Source of the DNA: Maritimibacter sp.
GTDB taxonomy: Bacteria; Pseudomonadota; Alphaproteobacteria; Rhodobacterales; Rhodobacteraceae
Assembly (NCBI GenBank): GCA_002695005.1
Contig: NZNT01000020.1
Span: forward strand, 372,001 to 436,000
DNA length: 64,000 nt
Direction: 5' to 3'
A model generated the notes under the pieces. That model was not told where the DNA came from and did not search any database. It saw only the letters and a program-made list of their open reading frames with translations. The position numbers were made by a program, and so were the translations under genes. Within the stretch, counting starts at the first letter, position 1. Each line of letters opens with the position of its first letter. Shown piece after piece: positions 55,846 through 63,465 of this stretch.

Positions 55846-57438
55846 TTACGAGGGTTTTTTGCCGCCGCGCGACAAGAAGACCGGGGCCGCCAGAGACAGA
55901 ACAAGGAACGCAACCGAGATAGGGCTCTTGAAGAGAAACCATGGGTCGGCGCCGGAAGCCGAGAAAGCTTCACGGGCGCTGCGTTCTATGGGACCCGCGA
56001 GGATGTAGGCGATGACAAAGGGCAAGACCGGCACCTGCATCTTTCGCATGAAGAAGCCGAATACACCGAACCCGAGCGTCGTCCAGATCGCGAACATCGA
56101 GGTTTCCTGAAAGTAGATTGCGGTCATGGCCACGAGCAGCACGACCGGCAAAAGGTAGTGCGCCGGTATCTTTGCAAGCACGCCCATCGCCCGCATGAAC
56201 GAACCGCCGACCGTCCAGTTCAACAGGTTACCCAGTGCCATCAGCGTGAATATCCCGAAGGCCGTCACGAGCTGCGGATTGATCTCATTTTCCGTGAATG
56301 TGAAGACTGCGGGGCCAGGATTGAACCCCCCTATGCTGTCGGCCGCGAGGATCAGGAAAACAGCGGCCGCGTTGCCAGGGATACCAAGGGACAAGACCGG
56401 AATGAGGTTCGCGCCGGAGACAGCGGAGTTCGCCGCCTCGGTCGCAGCGATGCCTTCCGGCACACCGGTCCCGAACTGTGGGTCTTCCGAAGCGGTTATT
56501 GCGCGGTGGCGGCGCCTGGCAAGTGTATAGGAGAGCGTCGCTGCAAGCGTCGATCCGACCCCTGGTAGCGCGCCGATCATGGTCCCCACGACAGCACCAC
56601 GCCCGATATAGGGAACGATCCGGCGGATGTCGCCCCGCTGAAGACCGTCTATCGCCCCGCGGTTCTCGACGTCCTTCACCTTCAGGGCATGCTTGTTCCG
56701 CCAGAGTTCTTCCAGTGTCGACAGGATTTCACCCACGATCAACACGCCAAGAACGGCGGCGGTCAGCGAGAACCCTTCTCGCAATGCCGGAATCCCCATG
56801 GTCAGGCGCGGGGAGAGGTCACTTCCCGATGCAATAAAGGCGGCGATCAATCCGAGGCTCACGGAAAGGAGCCCCTTGCCGACAGATGCCCCCATCACCG
56901 CGGCGATGAACGATATCGACAGGATGAGGAGCGCGGTCTTTTCCGGCAGGTCGAGGTAGCGCTCGACGATCACTGCGAGGAATGGTGCACAGACAAACAA
57001 AACGATGTCCGAGAATGTATCCCCCGACACCGACGACAGCTGCGCGATCCTTAGTGCACGCTTCGGCTGGCCGTTTTGTGCCATTGGATGACCATCGAGC
57101 GTGGTCATCATGGCGTCCGGCGTTCCCGGCAGGTTGAAAAGGATCGCGGGGACGGCTCCGCCGAGCGTGGCGCCCTTCATGATCCCGATCAGAAACGCGA
57201 AGACCGGCAAGAGGGCATCCGGTGTGAAACCGAAGGCAGAAATGAGTAACGGCAGCGAAATCGCCATCGCCATTGGTCCCGCAAGACCGGGCGTCGCGCC
57301 AACGGCGATGCCCGTCAGAAGCCCGCCCATGAGCATGACAATGGCCACAGGAACCCCGATCCCGAAGATCGAAAACAATTCAGGTCCATTCAGGACCGAC
57401 ATGATCCCGAGGCCGATGTATTGAAGCGTCTCGCTCAT
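55846..57438 (-). CDS. tctA: Tripartite tricarboxylate transporter large permease (TctA)
   Basis: The 530-aa 12-helix permease of a TTT-family importer for carboxylates. Family segments are GATPGLAGPMAMAISLPL, GGAVPAILFNLPGTPDAMMT, LPGVGSTLAATLSYTLA and LSLGIPGNAAAVFLILAAD. It overlaps tctB by 4 bp. Its natural stop is only 6 bp from the transposase fragment, so the module's left border was probably set by IS activity. Confidence 0.94.
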   Translation of the reverse strand: MSETLQYIGLGIMSVLNGPELFSIFGIGVPVAIVMLMGGLLTGIAVGATPGLAGPMAMAISLPLLISAFGFTPDALLPVFAFLIGIMKGATLGGAVPAILFNLPGTPDAMMTTLDGHPMAQNGQPKRALRIAQLSSVSGDTFSDIVLFVCAPFLAVIVERYLDLPEKTALLILSISFIAAVMGASVGKGLLSVSLGLIAAFIASGSDLSPRLTMGIPALREGFSLTAAVLGVLIVGEILSTLEELWRNKHALKVKDVENRGAIDGLQRGDIRRIVPYIGRGAVVGTMIGALPGVGSTLAATLSYTLARRRHRAITASEDPQFGTGVPEGIAATEAANSAVSGANLIPVLSLGIPGNAAAVFLILAADSIGGFNPGPAVFTFTENEINPQLVTAFGIFTLMALGNLLNWTVGGSFMRAMGVLAKIPAHYLLPVVLLVAMTAIYFQETSMFAIWTTLGFGVFGFFMRKMQVPVLPFVIAYILAGPIERSAREAFSASGADPWFLFKSPISVAFLVLSLAAPVFLSRGGKKPS

Positions 57439-57989
57439 TGATCGCCGTTCGGGGGCAACAGAAGATTATCGAAAGCAAGATCGAAGACACCAACAAGCGC
57501 AAGCGCCGCGGCAAGCCCGATCATCACCGCGTTTGACGTGACCCGCTTTTCGACAAGCGCGATCAGAGTTGTCACGAGGCCGGTGCCGCCCAGCACGAAG
57601 CCGATGTGCTTCCAGGGGGCCGTGTCGCGCAGGTTCCGGTATGTGTCGCCCTCCCCGCCAAAGACCGCGACCGCAAGCGGGCCTGCCCAGATCATGACGC
57701 CGAAAGAAACGGCGCAGGCGGTGAGCGCGACCAGAAGGAAAGCGAAAGTGCGCTGTTCGAGGGCCCCGGGCATGTCGCCCTTGCGGGCTTCCAGCAGAAG
57801 GATCAACCCCGAGAGCGCCATGAGACCGAAGGCGATCCCTGGCGCCATTGCGTCGCCGATCGACAAGCGGCCCCGCTTGGATTCCACGAAACCGGACACG
57901 GTATCGTTCGGCACCCAGGCGAAAAGCGCGAAGAGTGCCAGCGCGACGATCACGGCCCCGAGGGCCATATTCTGATTGATGCGTCGCAC
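57435..57989 (-). CDS. tctB: Tripartite tricarboxylate transporter small permease (TctB)
   Basis: A 184-aa four-helix membrane protein of the TctB family, starting with AVIVALALFALFAWVPN. The second helix contains GIAFGLMALSGLILLLEARK, a typical pattern. It lies 24 bp after tctC and overlaps tctA by 4 bp. Confidence 0.88.
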   Translation of the reverse strand: MRRINQNMALGAVIVALALFALFAWVPNDTVSGFVESKRGRLSIGDAMAPGIAFGLMALSGLILLLEARKGDMPGALEQRTFAFLLVALTACAVSFGVMIWAGPLAVAVFGGEGDTYRNLRDTAPWKHIGFVLGGTGLVTTLIALVEKRVTSNAVMIGLAAALALVGVFDLAFDNLLLPPNGDQ

Positions 57990-58013
57990 TGGCCTGATCC
58001 TGACGTCGCGGAT

Positions 58014-58967
58014 TTATCCGTTCACCGCTTCGATCAGCGCTGCGGCGTCCTTGACGGAATGCTCCATGAAGATATCGAGGTCTTCACCCGTGACCACGGC
58101 CGCGCCGCCGAAAGCCTTTGTCAGCATGGCATTCGCGTCGGTCGAGCTGTCGTTTGCCACGGCACGGATTGCGTTCCCAAGCGCTTCGCGCGCGTCAGGG
58201 TCCAGATCGCCGGGGGCAATGAACATGAAGTAGCCGTCGAGCAGGTAATCGCTGCCAAGTTCGGTGATGACCGGCGCGTCCGGGGTGTCGGCCAGCGGCG
58301 TCTTGATGCCACGTGCGATGTTTGTCATCTCGCCTTGCTGAACCGGTTTGGACTGCGCGCCTGCGACCCAGCCAATGTCGACATCACCGCCGCGCAGGCC
58401 GTCCATGACGCCCTTGCCGCCGCGCACCTCCACAATGTTGAAGTCGATGCCGACTTTCTGGCCGAGGTGCCATGCCATATCGGCTTGACGGTCGGACGCT
58501 GTGGCGAAGCGGATCGGGGTCCCGGCCTCGGCGGCGGCTGTGACCTTGTCCCAGCTGTCGAAATCTCCGCCATCCATGGCGACCATACCCATCTGGAATT
58601 GCGCCGTGGTCGCGAGAGGGGTGAATTTGTCCAGCTGCACAGAAGGATCACCGGAGGCGAGCGCCGAGTAAGTCAGCGTTTCGGAAACCACCATGCCGAT
58701 TGCCGTGCCGTCTGCGGGGGCATCCGCCAGTTCAGCAGCGAGGTTGAGGCCGGAGTTTCCCTGCGCCTGCTGCGGAATCACCGTCCAGCCGAATTTTTCC
58801 TCCAGCCCCTGCGCGATCAGGCGGGCCTGGGTATCTGCTCCACCACCGGCCGCGAAGCCGATATACATCGTGATGGGACCCGGCGGCGTCCAGCCCTGAG
58901 CCTGAGCTGAGAAGGGAGCGGCGCACAGTGCGGCAGCCGCGACGAGCGGTTTGAAAATATTGGTCAT
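58014..58967 (-). CDS. tctC: Tripartite tricarboxylate transporter substrate-binding protein (TctC/Bug)
   Basis: A 317-aa periplasmic Bug-type receptor with signal peptide MTNIFKPLVAAAALCAAPFSAQAQG. The mature domain has the family's PITMYIGFAAGGGADTQARL loop, where the carboxylate is bound. Bug receptors bind mono-, di- and tricarboxylates; the ligand cannot be read from the sequence. It is transcribed away from the MarR gene across a large palindrome. Confidence 0.93.
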   Translation of the reverse strand: MTNIFKPLVAAAALCAAPFSAQAQGWTPPGPITMYIGFAAGGGADTQARLIAQGLEEKFGWTVIPQQAQGNSGLNLAAELADAPADGTAIGMVVSETLTYSALASGDPSVQLDKFTPLATTAQFQMGMVAMDGGDFDSWDKVTAAAEAGTPIRFATASDRQADMAWHLGQKVGIDFNIVEVRGGKGVMDGLRGGDVDIGWVAGAQSKPVQQGEMTNIARGIKTPLADTPDAPVITELGSDYLLDGYFMFIAPGDLDPDAREALGNAIRAVANDSSTDANAMLTKAFGGAAVVTGEDLDIFMEHSVKDAAALIEAVNG

Positions 58968-58998
58968 GAGATCCTCCCTTGGATGGGAGATTCGTGAA

Positions 58999-59049
58999 GC
59001 AATAAGGTGGACAAGTCAACGAAAAAGGTTGACTTGTCCACTTTATTGC
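58999..59049. promoter_or_regulatory. 51-bp palindromic operator between tctC and the MarR gene
   Basis: Two 22-bp arms with one mismatched pair, separated by seven bases (GAAAAAG). The core of the left arm is GTGGACAAGTCAAC. It lies 32 bp before the tctC ATG and 30 bp before the MarR ATG, so it can control both directions. It is the clearest operator in the window. Confidence 0.88.
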
Positions 59050-59078
59050 GAAATGGCTTTGGGTGGGAGGATACCAGA

Positions 59079-59576
59079 ATGCCGAGAGATCGTGACGGAA
59101 ATGGCGAAAGGCTGGACCCTATCGAGACCTTTCTGCCGCTCGCATATCAGATTCATCAATTGGATCTGAAACTGGCCGCGCAAGCCCGGTCGGTTATCGC
59201 CGGCCACGGGGGCCTATCGCTGCCACAGTGGCGTGTTCTGCGCGTTATCGGCATGCGGGTCGCCACGAGTTCAACCGCCGTTCGCAAGTCGCTGGGATTC
59301 GACAAGAGCCAGTTCTCGAAGACGGTCAGCAGCATGGTGGAGGCCGACTTGATCCGTGTCGGTCCGCACGCGAGAGACCGGCGGCAATCGGAGCTCAATC
59401 TAACACCGAAAGGACAAGCCGCGCTCGATCAACTCGGGCCCGTATTGGATGACCGCAACAAGCACCTCTTGGCAACGCTGTCACCGACTGAACGCAAAGT
59501 CATCGCCACCGCACTCGCGAAGCTGAGCCGCGCCGCCGAAATCACGGAATTCGACAACGAAGACCCGGAAACATGA
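59079..59576 (+). CDS. MarR-family transcriptional regulator
   Basis: A 165-aa winged-helix regulator. The HTH region contains GLSLPQWRVLRVIGMRVAT, SLGFDKSQFSKTVSSMVEA and the wing GPHARDRRQSELNLTPKG. The ATG at 59079 follows GGGTGGGAGGATACCAG. An earlier open start lies inside the palindrome. The stop overlaps the sulfatase start by 4 bp. It most likely represses both its own operon and tctCBA until the substrate is present. Confidence 0.92.
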   Translation: MPRDRDGNGERLDPIETFLPLAYQIHQLDLKLAAQARSVIAGHGGLSLPQWRVLRVIGMRVATSSTAVRKSLGFDKSQFSKTVSSMVEADLIRVGPHARDRRQSELNLTPKGQAALDQLGPVLDDRNKHLLATLSPTERKVIATALAKLSRAAEITEFDNEDPET

Positions 59577-61009
59577 ACAGATCAAAGAACCTTCTCGTCA
59601 TCATGTCGGACGAGCATCAGGCCCGCGCGATGTCCTACCTCGGGCATCCGCTGGTCAGGACGCCGAATTTCGACAAGCTCGCGGCCCGGGGCATCACGTT
59701 CACGAATGCCTACACCCCGTCGCCGATCTGCGTGCCCGCCCGCGCGGCATTCGCGGCCGGTCGATACGTGCATGACATACGCTTGTGGGACAACGCGATG
59801 CCCTATACCGGTGAGCCGCGCGGATGGGGGCATGCACTACAGGACAAGGGTGTGCGGGTCGAATCCATCGGCAAGCTGCACTACCGCGATGAAGCGGACG
59901 ATGCCGGTTTTGACGTCGAGCACATCCCGATGCAGGTCGCGAACGGTGTGGGCATGGTCTGGGGCTCGCTCCGGCGCGAAGACGAAAGGGTCACCAAGGA
60001 CGGGCGGATGCTCGGCCCCTATGTCGGCCCCGGCGAGAGCAACTATACACGCTACGACAAGGCAGTCGTTTCTCGCACCCGCGACTGGCTTGCAGATGCC
60101 GCCGCACGCGACAGGGACGAATGCTGGTGCCTGTATGTCGGTTTGGTCGCCCCACATTTTCCGCTGATCGTGCCGCAGGAATACCTCGACATGTATCCGC
60201 TCGACAGCCTGCCGCCCATCAAGAGCCGCCCGGATGATGGATACATCCAGCACCCATGGGTCGCGAAACAGAACAACGCGCTGCGCGGGGACAATGCGTT
60301 CAAGGACGAAGAAGAGCGGCTGACCGCGATCGCCTGTTACTTTGCACTGTGTTCTTTCCTCGACGAGAATGTCGGGCACCTGATGTCGGCCCTTGAAGAA
60401 ACCGGTCAGCTGGATGACACGACGATTATCTACACGTCGGATCACGGCGACAACGTTGGCGCGCGCGGACTCTGGGGCAAATCCAACATGTATGAGGAAT
60501 CGGTCGCGGTCCCGATGATCGTTGCCGAACCCGGCACCACGGCTTCGACATGCGCAACGCCCGTCAGCCTGCTCGATGTCTCGCAAACCATCATCGACCA
60601 TTTCGGCGCGTCATTGCCGGGGGATCGTCCCGGCCAAAGTCTTTATGACATCGCCGATGAGCCCGAAGATCCGGACCGCGTCATCTTTTCGGAGTATCAC
60701 GCCGTGGGCGCGGTCTCGGCCGCCTACATGGTGCGCAAGGGCAAATGGAAGCTCATCCATTACCACGGCTTCGCTCCCGAGCTTTTCGATCTCGACGCCG
60801 ACCCCGAAGAACTGACCGATCTCGGAAGTGATCCTGCATATGCAGAGGTGGTTGCCCAGATGGAGGCGCACCTCGAAGAGATCTGCGACCCGGAGGCGAT
60901 GAACGACCTCGCCTTCGCCGATCAGGACGCGATGATCGAGCGATATGGAGGGCGCGAGGTTGCAATGAACATGGGGGCGCCCGCCGCGACGCCGCCGCCC
61001 GAAACCTGA
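59573..61009 (+). CDS. Cytoplasmic sulfatase (choline-sulfatase-like)
   Basis: A 478-aa formylglycine-type sulfatase. The modification motif CVPAR (Cys53-Arg57) has the C-x-P-x-R pattern, metal-binding residues are in MSDEHQARAM (D13) and YTSDHGDNVGARGLW, and the C-terminal ELFDLDADPEE loop is typical of arylsulfatases. There is no signal peptide, so it acts in the cytoplasm on an imported sulfate ester. Phosphonate monoester hydrolase activity is an alternative. It lies between MarR (overlap) and the FAD dehydrogenase (12-bp gap). Confidence 0.88.
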   Translation: MNRSKNLLVIMSDEHQARAMSYLGHPLVRTPNFDKLAARGITFTNAYTPSPICVPARAAFAAGRYVHDIRLWDNAMPYTGEPRGWGHALQDKGVRVESIGKLHYRDEADDAGFDVEHIPMQVANGVGMVWGSLRREDERVTKDGRMLGPYVGPGESNYTRYDKAVVSRTRDWLADAAARDRDECWCLYVGLVAPHFPLIVPQEYLDMYPLDSLPPIKSRPDDGYIQHPWVAKQNNALRGDNAFKDEEERLTAIACYFALCSFLDENVGHLMSALEETGQLDDTTIIYTSDHGDNVGARGLWGKSNMYEESVAVPMIVAEPGTTASTCATPVSLLDVSQTIIDHFGASLPGDRPGQSLYDIADEPEDPDRVIFSEYHAVGAVSAAYMVRKGKWKLIHYHGFAPELFDLDADPEELTDLGSDPAYAEVVAQMEAHLEEICDPEAMNDLAFADQDAMIERYGGREVAMNMGAPAATPPPET

Positions 61010-61021
61010 GGACACGGACCG

Positions 61022-62410
61022 ATGAACGACATGCCCCGCACGACCAACATCGACGCGGCGCTGGACGCCCTGCGCGCTTTGCTCGAAGACAAGCTTTCCA
61101 CCGGCACGTCGATCCTCGATCAGCATTCCCATGACGAGGCTTACACGACGCCTGTCCTGCCAGACGCCGTCGCATTCCCGGAAACCACCGAAGACGTCGC
61201 GCAGATCGTTCGTATCTGCGCGGAGCACGACTGTCCGATCGTGCCCTATGGTTTCGGCACCTCCCTGGAAGGTCAGATTGTCCCGGTGTCCGGTGGGATC
61301 AGCCTGGACATGAGCCGGATGGAGCGGGTCATTGCGATCAACGAAAGCGACCTCGACGCAGTCGTGCAGCCGGGCGTGCGCCGGACCCAGCTGAACGACG
61401 CTTTGCGTGGCACCGGGCTCATGTTCACCGTTGATCCCGGCGCTGACGCGTCGATGGGTGGCATGGCCTCGACCCGCGCATCCGGCACCAACACGGTACG
61501 CTACGGCACCATGCGCGAAAACGTCCTCGCGCTGGAAGTCGTGCTGGCAACCGGTGAGGTTATTCGCACCGGCAGTCGCGCGCGGAAATCCTCATCCGGC
61601 TATGACCTGACGAACCTGTTCATCGGGGCCGAGGGCACGCTGGGCATCATCACGGAGCTTACCGTCAAGTTGCACGGCCAGCCGGACACGATCCTGTCCG
61701 CGACCTGTGCGTTCGAAACGGTGGATGACGCGGTGAACACAGTGATCCTTGCGATTCAGATGGGCCTTCCCCTGGCGCGTATCGAATTGCTCGACGATGT
61801 GCAGATGAAAGGGATGAACTTGTTCAAGCCTGAGCTCGGCCTGCCGGAGAAGCCGCACCTTTTCCTAGAGTTCCACGGAAGCGAAGCCGGTGTCGCCGAG
61901 CAAGTCGAACTGTTCCAGTCCGTCGCCGAAGAGCATGGCGCGAGTGACTTCGCCTCATCGACCAAGATGGAGGAACGCAATGCCCTTTGGGCAGCGAGAC
62001 ACGAGGCATACTACGCCGGACGCGCGCTGAAACCGGGCGCGAAAGGTCTGATCACCGATTGCTGCGTGCCAATTTCGGCGCTGGCGGAGTGCATCGCACG
62101 CACGAGGATCGAAATCGAAGAAGCCGGTCTTGTCGCTCCGCTCGTGGGTCATGTCGGAGATGGTAATTTCCACCTGAATATCCTGATCGACCCCGACGAC
62201 GCGAGTGAGCTTGATCGCGCCAAAACGCTCGCAGCAAAAGTGAACGAAATCGCCCTGTCCCTTGGCGGGACCGTGACCGGCGAACACGGAGTTGGATTGG
62301 GCAAAAAGAAATACATGAGTGCGGAACACGGTGGTTCCTATCCGTTCATGCAGCTTTTGAAGAGAAGCGTTGACCCAAAGGGCATCCTGAACCCTGGAAA
62401 GCTCGTCTGA
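61022..62410 (+). CDS. FAD-linked D-2-hydroxyacid dehydrogenase (GlcD/LDHD-like)
   Basis: A 462-aa flavoprotein. The FAD-binding PCMH domain has CPIVPYGFGTSLEGQIVPV and FIGAEGTLGIITELTVK. The C-terminal domain has HVGDGNFHLNILID and TGEHGVGLGKKKYM, where His residues bind a 2-hydroxycarboxylate in related enzymes. It is the last gene of the MarR-sulfatase operon. It probably oxidises the hydroxy-acid freed by the sulfatase. Confidence 0.92.
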   Translation: MNDMPRTTNIDAALDALRALLEDKLSTGTSILDQHSHDEAYTTPVLPDAVAFPETTEDVAQIVRICAEHDCPIVPYGFGTSLEGQIVPVSGGISLDMSRMERVIAINESDLDAVVQPGVRRTQLNDALRGTGLMFTVDPGADASMGGMASTRASGTNTVRYGTMRENVLALEVVLATGEVIRTGSRARKSSSGYDLTNLFIGAEGTLGIITELTVKLHGQPDTILSATCAFETVDDAVNTVILAIQMGLPLARIELLDDVQMKGMNLFKPELGLPEKPHLFLEFHGSEAGVAEQVELFQSVAEEHGASDFASSTKMEERNALWAARHEAYYAGRALKPGAKGLITDCCVPISALAECIARTRIEIEEAGLVAPLVGHVGDGNFHLNILIDPDDASELDRAKTLAAKVNEIALSLGGTVTGEHGVGLGKKKYMSAEHGGSYPFMQLLKRSVDPKGILNPGKLV

Positions 62411-63153
62411 TCGTGGCTTGGAATGGGAGGGTCTTGACCGGGTACGAGGTCGAACGTGGAGGCCCATCGAATGCGGCCGGCATTTGTGTTGAAAGCACAA
62501 TGCTGCAGAACGAGCACATTGCTCCACCGTATAGAAGCATGCACTCTGTTTTGACGGTGCGCTGGACCGCGATTATGGACGTGCTGCGATGAATTCGCTT
62601 GTTCAAAAACCGGACATATCTGCCGAGTGGAACGACGGTCTGCTTCCTTCCCAAGATTGCCTGACCCCCGCCGAAAGTGCCCGAACGCGCGCCTCCGCAA
62701 TCGCCCGGCCACTGCGCAGGTTGAAAATTCCGAGCGTCGGGCGATCGCTCAACCTGCGCCGGTCGGCGCGAACAGCCAGCCTGGCTCAAATAGCGGCTGT
62801 GTGAAGCTTCAGTGGCGAGACGACCCCGTACCACTTGTTTTCGGAGGGCGGCAACGACCCGGAACGTTCGGTGGTTAAGCACACGTTGTTCTACGCGGGT
62901 CTCTGCAGCAGCGTCGCCTGCCCCAACCCTTCTCGAGGTCTCCGCGCTCACTTGAACTTGCTTGCTATTGCGGCCCTTGCCTGAGACCCGATCAAAAAGT
63001 CCGGCAGCGGGATACTCGGCCGGTCCGAACAGCGCGAGCCACTACCGTCCTCACTGAAACCTTCCCAAAACGGCGCGATGCCAAAGTCAAAACTGCCATT
63101 GCGGAAGTTCATGTTGCATGTTACATGTAATTTGAATGCAGCGGGAGGAACTG
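62411..63153. other. Gap of about 740 bp without a recognised gene
   Basis: Between the flavoprotein and the Rieske gene I see no supported gene. Open frames on both strands lack ribosome-binding sites. A 54-codon minus-strand frame (62948-63112) ending PLPDFLIGSQARA recalls the N-terminus of sulfotransferases, but it is too short. At the right end TTACATGTAA (63121-63130) is a perfect palindrome with TGCAT (63115) and ATGCA (63136) around it, a likely operator for the Rieske operon. Confidence 0.5.
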
Positions 63154-63465
63154 ATGAAGTGGAAGGCTTTCTGCGCGGTCGATGACCTAGAGGACGGCGA
63201 CATGCGGAGCTTTTGTCACCAGCCGAAGATCGCGATCTATCGCGTTGGCGATGAATTCTTAGCGACTGGGGCAATCTGTACGCACATGGAGTCGGACCTG
63301 ACCGAAGGGTATCTCGACGACGATGTCGTGGAGTGTGCGCTTCACGCCGCGACCTTCAATGTTCGTGACGGGCGAGCGCTTTCCCTGCCGGCCACAGAAC
63401 CTCTCACGACCTATCCGGTTCGTGTCGAAGGCGGGATGGTCGAGGTTGGGTTCGAAAATGACTGA
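63154..63465 (+). CDS. Rieske-type [2Fe-2S] ferredoxin
   Basis: A 103-aa Rieske ferredoxin. Cluster ligands are CTH (in AICTHMESDLTEG) and CALH (in VVECALHAATFNV), the C-x-H...C-x2-H pattern. The start at 63154 follows GCGGGAGGAACTG. Such proteins pass electrons from a reductase to a ring-hydroxylating oxygenase or a P450. It overlaps the reductase gene by 8 bp; the terminal oxygenase is not in the window. Confidence 0.92.
   Translation: MKWKAFCAVDDLEDGDMRSFCHQPKIAIYRVGDEFLATGAICTHMESDLTEGYLDDDVVECALHAATFNVRDGRALSLPATEPLTTYPVRVEGGMVEVGFEND

Follow-up and report, generated by a model that had tools for sequence, protein, structure and literature searches.

We examined six genes at positions 55846-62410 of a 64,000-nucleotide stretch of DNA from Maritimibacter sp. 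(Rhodobacteraceae; assembly GCA_002695005.1, contig NZNT01000020.1, positions 372,001 to 436,000 of the forward strand), hereafter the window; its end falls within contig C20 (572 kb) of a draft genome of 4.27 Mb. A first-pass annotation had read the set as a single regulon for the import, desulfation and oxidation of an organosulfate acid. The genes are present at the positions and on the strands that it gave, and the divergent arrangement, a 51-bp palindrome, a 4-bp overlap and a 12-bp gap are all confirmed; its interpretation as a whole is partly supported.

Leftward, on the minus strand, lie the genes of a tripartite tricarboxylate transporter (TTT): tctC (58014..58967, 317 aa), the periplasmic Bug-type receptor, tctB (57435..57989, 184 aa), the small permease, and tctA (55846..57438, 530 aa), the large permease, the last two overlapping by 4 bp. 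Rightward, on the plus strand, are marR (59079..59576, 165 aa), encoding a probable local regulator, the sulfatase gene (59573..61009, 478 aa) and a gene for a flavin adenine dinucleotide (FAD) dependent D-2-hydroxyacid dehydrogenase of the LDHD type (61022..62410, 462 aa). The marR and sulfatase genes overlap by 4 bp, 12 bp separate the sulfatase from the dehydrogenase, and the two transcripts diverge over a 51-bp inverted repeat (58999..59049) in the tctC-marR gap. Pfam cut-offs are passed by TctA (PF01970, 322.9 bits), TctC (PF03401, 42.5 bits), MarR (PF12802, 41.0 bits), the sulfatase (PF00884, 147.8 bits, with PF16347) and the dehydrogenase (PF02913 with PF01565). TctB alone falls below (PF07331, 21.8 bits against 29.1), yet it is in place, overlaps tctA and has homologs at the same place in related loci. 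As in known TTT transporters with Bug receptors, the three subunits are encoded in one operon, the difference being the low score of TctB. The nearest solved sequence to TctC is Bug27 (E 6.9e-10), and by eye TctC reads like a protein with a signal peptide. The listed open reading frame of marR starts at GTG 59007, inside the inverted repeat; the in-frame ATG at 59079, with GGGAGG ahead of it, is more likely to be the start, judging from the sequence. MarR scores far under the cut-offs of the HpaR and BilQ models.

The sulfatase contains Sulfatase and SGSH_C domains and its nearest named relatives are from Rhodobacterales. No signal peptide is visible by eye, and the N-terminus runs directly into the first strand (residues 6-12) of the predicted model, which has a mean pLDDT of 90.8; the ester must therefore be imported. 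Among the best 50 structure matches the closest fold is that of choline sulfatase, with template modelling (TM) scores of 0.84-0.86, and arylsulfatases, carrageenan sulfatase and phosphonate monoester hydrolases rank next at 0.73-0.76. Nine positions that align with catalytic residues, D13, C53, R57, K101, H103, H195, D290, H291 and K303, are invariant in 80 of 80 alignment rows, the window included. The class I motif CxPxR, here C53-V-P-A-R, occurs in all 114 sulfatases examined (a redundant set). The assignment as a cytoplasmic, formylglycine-type sulfatase thus stands, with catalytic residues intact and the choline sulfatase tests failed.

No curated NCBI family cut-off is reached by this protein. 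Its best NCBIfam match, the choline sulfatase model TIGR03417, gives 265.6 bits against a cut-off of 433.45. Membership of the Mn-arylsulfatases was rejected at 213.5 bits against 481, and the PehA or phosphonate monoester hydrolase model, NF045661, reaches 171 bits where 900 are required. The closest well-described enzyme is BetC of Sinorhizobium meliloti (SmCS, 6fny), encoded in the bet operon, likewise a class I enzyme acting on a small alkyl sulfate with the same fold and catalytic residues, and with a desulfated product that is then oxidised, as proposed for the window module. In SmCS, Glu386 holds the choline ammonium and the Glu386Leu change costs approximately 1000-fold, according to the accessible part of PMC5870055. 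The corresponding residue in the window sulfatase is V378, and over the 80 rows the position is Val in 34, Ala in 30, Ile in 10, Ser in five and Thr in one, with Glu in none. The position of SmCS Gln15 is Glu or Gln in the window's clade. The alignment with choline sulfatase stops at residue 433 of 515, ahead of most of its tail (449-512 in SmCS, against a total length of 478 residues here), and in contrast to the bet operon the window sulfatase adjoins TTT genes and a hydroxyacid dehydrogenase. The protein looks like a small-alkyl-sulfate esterase with an altered specificity pocket. A relative with 59% identity (L141, CP030828.1 338176-339624) is annotated as betC choline-sulfatase; the loss of the glutamate in 80 of 80 rows, L141 not being among them, suggests that this label may be a misannotation.

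The dehydrogenase aligns with 8jdc, a mitochondrial D-lactate dehydrogenase, over residues 14-461 (phmmer E 2.9e-138). Its numbering and an H405A variant agree with the mouse LDHD of PMC10589216, so we take 8jdc to be that enzyme. In that enzyme Arg347, His398, His405, Glu442 and His443, which form subsite A, bind Mn and the 2-hydroxycarboxylate, and the available portion of the report describes a general D-2-hydroxyacid dehydrogenase without glycolate activity (PMC10589216). All five residues are kept in the window protein, as in 27 fetched homologs aligned with it (duplicates included), and together with the FAD_binding_4 and FAD-oxidase_C domains they identify a true LDHD type, bearing out the earlier assignment as an FAD 2-hydroxyacid dehydrogenase. 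Subsite B differs from mouse LDHD at four positions (V101L, W351Y, S365I and I407N), with A363G beside it, leaving a side-chain pocket that is small, altered and mostly hydrophobic. The Tyr that marks GlcD is absent, and the model of the GlcD glycolate oxidase subunit, TIGR00387, was rejected at 336 bits against a cut-off of 567.9. The pocket would favour D-lactate-type acids over glycolate. The substrate had been proposed to be of a glycolate or lactate type; as the pocket is not GlcD-like and mouse LDHD, in what is accessible of PMC10589216, has no glycolate activity, the lactate type is retained and a glycolate ester is less likely.

Is this arrangement found elsewhere? A sulfatase scan of one genome per species over 84,980 species gave 210 relatives, and the best 80 of the 210 were taken as loci (numbered with L). 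L074, whose sulfatase is identical to that of L073, was dropped, leaving 79 distinct loci, 24 of which have less than 6 kb on one side. A divergent tctC lies within 2 kb of the sulfatase in 62 of the 79, a TctA that is at least 50% identical lies within 6.5 kb in 64, and a MarR homolog anywhere in the fetched stretch in 65. These counts define a core of MarR, TctCBA and sulfatase. The dehydrogenase varies between loci, and the six genes as a fixed unit were rejected; of the neighbourhood predicted earlier, the core recurs, and the dehydrogenase drops out as a fixed member. In a separate sample of 295 genomes of the family the sulfatase is present in 43 (E ≤ 1e-90) and TctA in 30 (E ≤ 1e-150, identity at least 55%). 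By hand comparison, 26 of these 30 genomes have TctA and the sulfatase no more than approximately 6 kb apart, the exceptions being genomes G102, G134, G142 and G177.

The dehydrogenase is an accessory of one supported clade of the sulfatase, outside this core. The window falls in a 22-row clade of the 80-row tree with a Shimodaira-Hasegawa-like approximate likelihood ratio (SH-aLRT) support of 99; the tree is from a quick search with SH-aLRT support only, and long-branch warnings apply to L087 and to the SAR116 rows with the outgroup. The neighbourhood within 6 kb of the sulfatase was searched for homologs, above 150 bits, of three seed dehydrogenases (LDHD, GlcD-like and LldD). Such homologs occur in 14 of the 22 clade rows and in one of the 58 others (L060, an LldD). 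Restricting the comparison to loci with full 6-kb flanks on both sides, and leaving the window uncounted, gives 13 of 20 clade loci against 0 of 35 others, with a Fisher value of 5e-8 that ignores relatedness and applies to a clade picked after the labels were seen. The refuting observation named in the first-pass annotation, that homologous dehydrogenases are never near the sulfatase in other genomes, was therefore not made, and a recurrent pairing emerges.

LDHD and the GlcD-like proteins are two distant FAD types, and LldD is an unrelated flavin mononucleotide (FMN) type. The 14 linked rows comprise eight LDHD, four GlcD-like and two LldD. An LDHD gene directly follows the sulfatase on the same strand in the window, L008, L012, L014, L016 and L020. 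In L015 and L018 an LDHD of 50% identity has an aminotransferase gene as its neighbour, an arrangement shared with the annotated plasmid locus L137, and both loci lack tctCBA of the window type. The GlcD/D2HGDH-like gene follows tctA in L019, L050, L054 and L072, and its closest solved relatives are a putative oxidoreductase and D-2-hydroxyglutarate dehydrogenase. LldD follows a second sulfatase in L023 and L024, as well as in L060 outside the clade. Its score is sufficient for a broad L-lactate dehydrogenase model and falls short of the cut-off for the strict LldD model. That one sulfatase clade is joined by FAD as well as FMN enzymes, with both D and L specificities expected among them, supports an O-sulfated 2-hydroxyacid as substrate. 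In the eight unlinked clade rows no further flavin hydroxyacid dehydrogenase was recognised within about 6 kb, judging protein starts by eye; in L013 the start of a nicotinamide adenine dinucleotide (NAD)-type 2-hydroxyacid dehydrogenase-like protein lies approximately 6.2 kb away.

Within the 295 family genomes, the window's included, all four LDHDs of at least 74% identity are directly beside the sulfatase. The next seven homologs (L120-L126, 62-68% identity) are not, and their neighbours are by eye unrelated and give no substrate hint. Identity is no clean divider, as the sulfatase-adjacent LDHDs of L020, L136 and L138 are 68-70% identical to that of the window.

Plasmid records, of which the best nine of 17 matches were taken without placement on the tree, provide a partly independent check: L139 and L142 are near-alike, L139 is genome G200 of the family sample, and L143 and L144 are from one species, that of L011. 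A dehydrogenase lies within 6 kb in seven of the nine. LDHD directly follows the sulfatase in L136 and L138, from plasmids of Paracoccus seriniphilus and Sulfitobacter SK012, so that this same-strand arrangement is seen in the window and seven other fetched loci. LldD is found in L139 and L142, an LDHD of 50% identity in L137 and of 69% in L140, and a GlcD-like protein of 34% in L141. None of the three types is within 6 kb in L143 or L144. Among culturable carriers of the module, Paracoccus seriniphilus has the LDHD and Tritonibacter mobilis does not. Its MarR, second sulfatase and metallo-beta-lactamase (MBL) gene place locus L140 with the sister type. At L140:2119-3652, in Sulfitobacter SK012, a sulfatase fragment and then the 69% LDHD abut this sister-type module, and at L138:15267-19434 of the same organism another TctCBA-sulfatase set comes after a clade-type module. 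This looks like recombination of modules on plasmids.

Sister loci, outside the clade, have other companions. A second sulfatase of about 508 residues after tctA and an RNase Z/MBL-fold hydrolase take the place of a dehydrogenase in many of them, both being present in 30 of the 58 non-clade rows. The MBL protein, which follows the sulfatase in many sister loci (e.g. L022:10422-11270), matches RNase Z and, weakly and about equally well, an MBL arylsulfatase (8gyg), and is possibly a third hydrolase of the same substrates. Pyridoxal phosphate (PLP) enzymes also stand beside sister modules, a beta-eliminating lyase at L037:1563-2777 and a PALP protein at L048:11473-12702, a hint that sulfated amino acids may be other substrates. 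Proteins like tryptophan 2,3-dioxygenase and kynureninase are near L024 (by eye) and L086 and L087 (by cluster).

The 51-bp repeat consists of two arms of 22 nt (58999-59020 and 59028-59049), 95% complementary, with a 7-nt spacer. Its score is 18.4, compared with at most 4.1 in three shuffles. Allowing up to two mismatches the arm sequence is found in the window only at this site, yet two of 100 shuffles also gave two matches; with up to one mismatch the 4.27-Mb genome contains both arms here and one lone site, and no others. The best repeat in the tctC-marR gap was sought in 34 loci, the window included, comprising 18 of the clade and 16 sister loci, with clade loci L015, L017, L018 and L038 outside the comparison. 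A like repeat, centred on GTCAAC-N(4-8)-GTTGAC and typically GTGGACAWGTCAAC...GTTGACWTGTCCAC, is present in 16 of the 18 clade loci, counting the window; L009 and L014 have none by the same measure. In L008, L012, L013 and L020 one base pair is changed relative to the window in both arms together, and L010, L011, L016 and L021 are among the clade loci with arms less well matched to each other. The repeats of the 16 sister loci are weaker, or strong but of another sequence. Recurrence and near-uniqueness fit a dedicated, predicted MarR operator governing both transcripts. A single divergent regulon is likely, as had been proposed, although the six genes are not a conserved unit.

How might these components work together? 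TctC and TctAB, judged by their families, would respectively capture the acid, which is doubly charged, in the periplasm and carry it into the cell. The class I sulfatase, whose fold and catalytic residues are in place, would act as choline sulfatase does, by attack at sulfur, releasing sulfate and leaving the free D-2-hydroxyacid. The LDHD-type flavoprotein, given its family and pocket, would oxidise this to pyruvate or another 2-oxoacid. MarR would sit on the 51-bp repeat and repress both transcripts until substrate or product appears. On balance we think it probable, with some reserve, that the six genes work under local control as a single module for the catabolism of an O-sulfated 2-hydroxycarboxylate, an acid most likely of the D-lactate-2-sulfate type.

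Several observations weigh against this assignment. The substrate, sulfate release and co-expression are each predicted from the gene sequences. The non-clade sulfatases pair with the transporter in the company of a second sulfatase, MBL hydrolases or PLP enzymes, which indicates that the esters accepted by the sulfatase family probably extend beyond those of 2-hydroxyacids. In eight of the 22 clade rows no dehydrogenase of the three types lies within 6 kb, and the dehydrogenase label needs eight changes on the tree, where shuffled labels need a mean of 13.9. The LDHD of the sister-type locus L140 shows that the link can also occur outside the clade. Homologs of LDHD are widespread (present in 242 of the 295 family genomes at E ≤ 1e-100), making recruitment of a household enzyme possible, and the Asn at the Ile407 pocket position is polar. 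The repeat is, by score, the longest terminator-like hairpin of the region, and a role as folded RNA is thus possible.

Formylglycine maturation is a further point on that side. No canonical formylglycine-generating enzyme (FGE) was recognised by eye in the host genome (99.81% complete), and a search of that genome for the anaerobic sulfatase-maturating enzyme (anSME) gave no match. The best PF03781 protein of the host is NirV-like, lies beside what reads like a nitrite reductase gene and by eye has no paired cysteines, which we take to be the FGE signature; a second PF03781 match is weak. By hand count 22 of the 43 family genomes carrying the sulfatase have no FGE match at E ≤ 1e-15. In E. 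coli, too, the enzyme that matures such sulfatases is unknown, as the accessible text of PMC5870055 states, so the lack of a recognised FGE or anSME is a puzzle and no refutation. For the expression of SmCS an FGE was co-expressed (PMC5870055). An unknown maturase may be at work in the host. The host genome holds several sulfatase-family genes, and an FGE gene follows LldD in L024 and L060.

Four other explanations have to be weighed. The first is that the sulfatase removes sulfate from some other imported carboxylate, such as a sulfated amino acid or sugar acid, and that the dehydrogenase adjoins it by chance or as a household gene. The general abundance of LDHD-type genes, the eight clade and 57 of 58 other rows where the three types are not near, and the PLP enzymes of L037 and L048 are in keeping with this. 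Against it stand the recurrence of three dehydrogenase types in the clade, with none in the 35 full-flank loci outside, and the eight fetched loci (the window and seven others) in which a same-strand LDHD immediately follows the sulfatase. We regard this explanation as unlikely though worth keeping in mind.

The second is a sulfated aromatic 2-hydroxyacid, of the hydroxymandelate or hydroxyphenyl-lactate type, bearing the sulfate on a ring hydroxyl, with LDHD or LldD oxidising the 2-hydroxy group and the ring passing to a nearby aromatic pathway. Just downstream (window 63136-63465 and L117:9324-16306) are genes for a Rieske ferredoxin, a ferredoxin reductase, TRAP-type proteins (judged by eye), an FAA-type hydratase, an acylating acetaldehyde dehydrogenase and a DmpG-type aldolase, followed by what appear by eye to be CoA-transferase-like and quinone-oxidoreductase-like genes; the set reads as the lower part of an aromatic meta-cleavage pathway. 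In addition MarR matches HpaR and BilQ models, though far below their cut-offs, LldD homologs also match mandelate-oxidising enzymes, and ring-dioxygenase genes are annotated near two plasmid loci. However, seven downstream proteins have no homologs (E ≤ 1e-10) in the stretches fetched for the seven other loci where LDHD directly follows the sulfatase, LDHD subsite B lines a small, mostly hydrophobic pocket, and choline sulfatase, the closest in fold, has a small alkyl sulfate as its substrate. An aromatic substrate seems rather unlikely.

Hydrolysis of a phosphonate monoester or phosphodiester in place of a sulfate ester is very improbable; the enzymes share a superfamily and the fold matches include phosphonate monoester hydrolases (TM 0.73-0.74), but the choline sulfatase fold is closer and the PehA score is far short of its cut-off. 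Choline sulfatase itself, the best NCBIfam and fold match and the betC annotation of the Neorhizobium homolog in CP030828, is scarcely credible given the shortfall in bits, the replacement of Glu386 in every row at a position where Leu is so costly to SmCS (PMC5870055, in the part accessible), a sequence match that ends at 433 of 515 and the adjoining carboxylate-type transporter.

We return to the O-sulfated 2-hydroxycarboxylate as the preferred substrate, a reading that applies to the window's clade; the sulfatase-transporter core probably serves a wider set of O-sulfated carboxylates. Propan-2-yl sulfate degradation runs through lactate-2-sulfate, and D-lactate-2-sulphatase, presumably EC 3.1.6.17, is to our knowledge an enzyme without a gene. 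We also know of no sulfate-ester ligand for a TTT transporter. A D-lactate-2-sulphatase, that of Pseudomonas syringae GG, was purified in 1984 (Crescenzi 1984, a title cited in PMC5870055), and its reaction, O-sulfated 2-hydroxyacid to hydroxyacid and sulfate, is that predicted here; being known from its title only, it permits no claim of homology, and no sequence or gene was found for it. The literature, covered mostly as titles and the starts of abstracts with subscription papers poorly represented, gave no pathway combining TTT, sulfatase and hydroxyacid dehydrogenase, and, in the same coverage, no paper on a gene set consuming glycolic or lactic acid sulfates. The pathway had been called undescribed; within this literature coverage that holds for the gene combination, while the reaction has its precedent in the 1984 enzyme, as far as the cited title goes (PMC5870055).

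Glycolic and lactic acid sulfates are often among the five most abundant organosulfates of fine aerosol, according to the accessible part of PMC12224290, and a sea-spray study used glycolic acid sulfate as a standard, the available portion giving no bacterial consumer (PMC12183759). Perhaps the O-sulfated substrates of the clade's route include these aerosol compounds. We class the module as an organosulfate-ester catabolic operon, and there is a fair chance that it is the missing lactate-2-sulfatase locus. More tentatively, and with considerable doubt, the clade may be the missing lactate-2-sulfatase gene family of Rhodobacterales and relatives, joining TTT import and cytoplasmic desulfation to stereospecific D- or L-2-hydroxyacid dehydrogenases that differ by locus. 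If this is true, the enzyme activity known since 1984 would gain a gene that can be tested, TTT receptors would gain sulfate esters as a class of ligand, and there would be a marker to seek in marine metagenomes.

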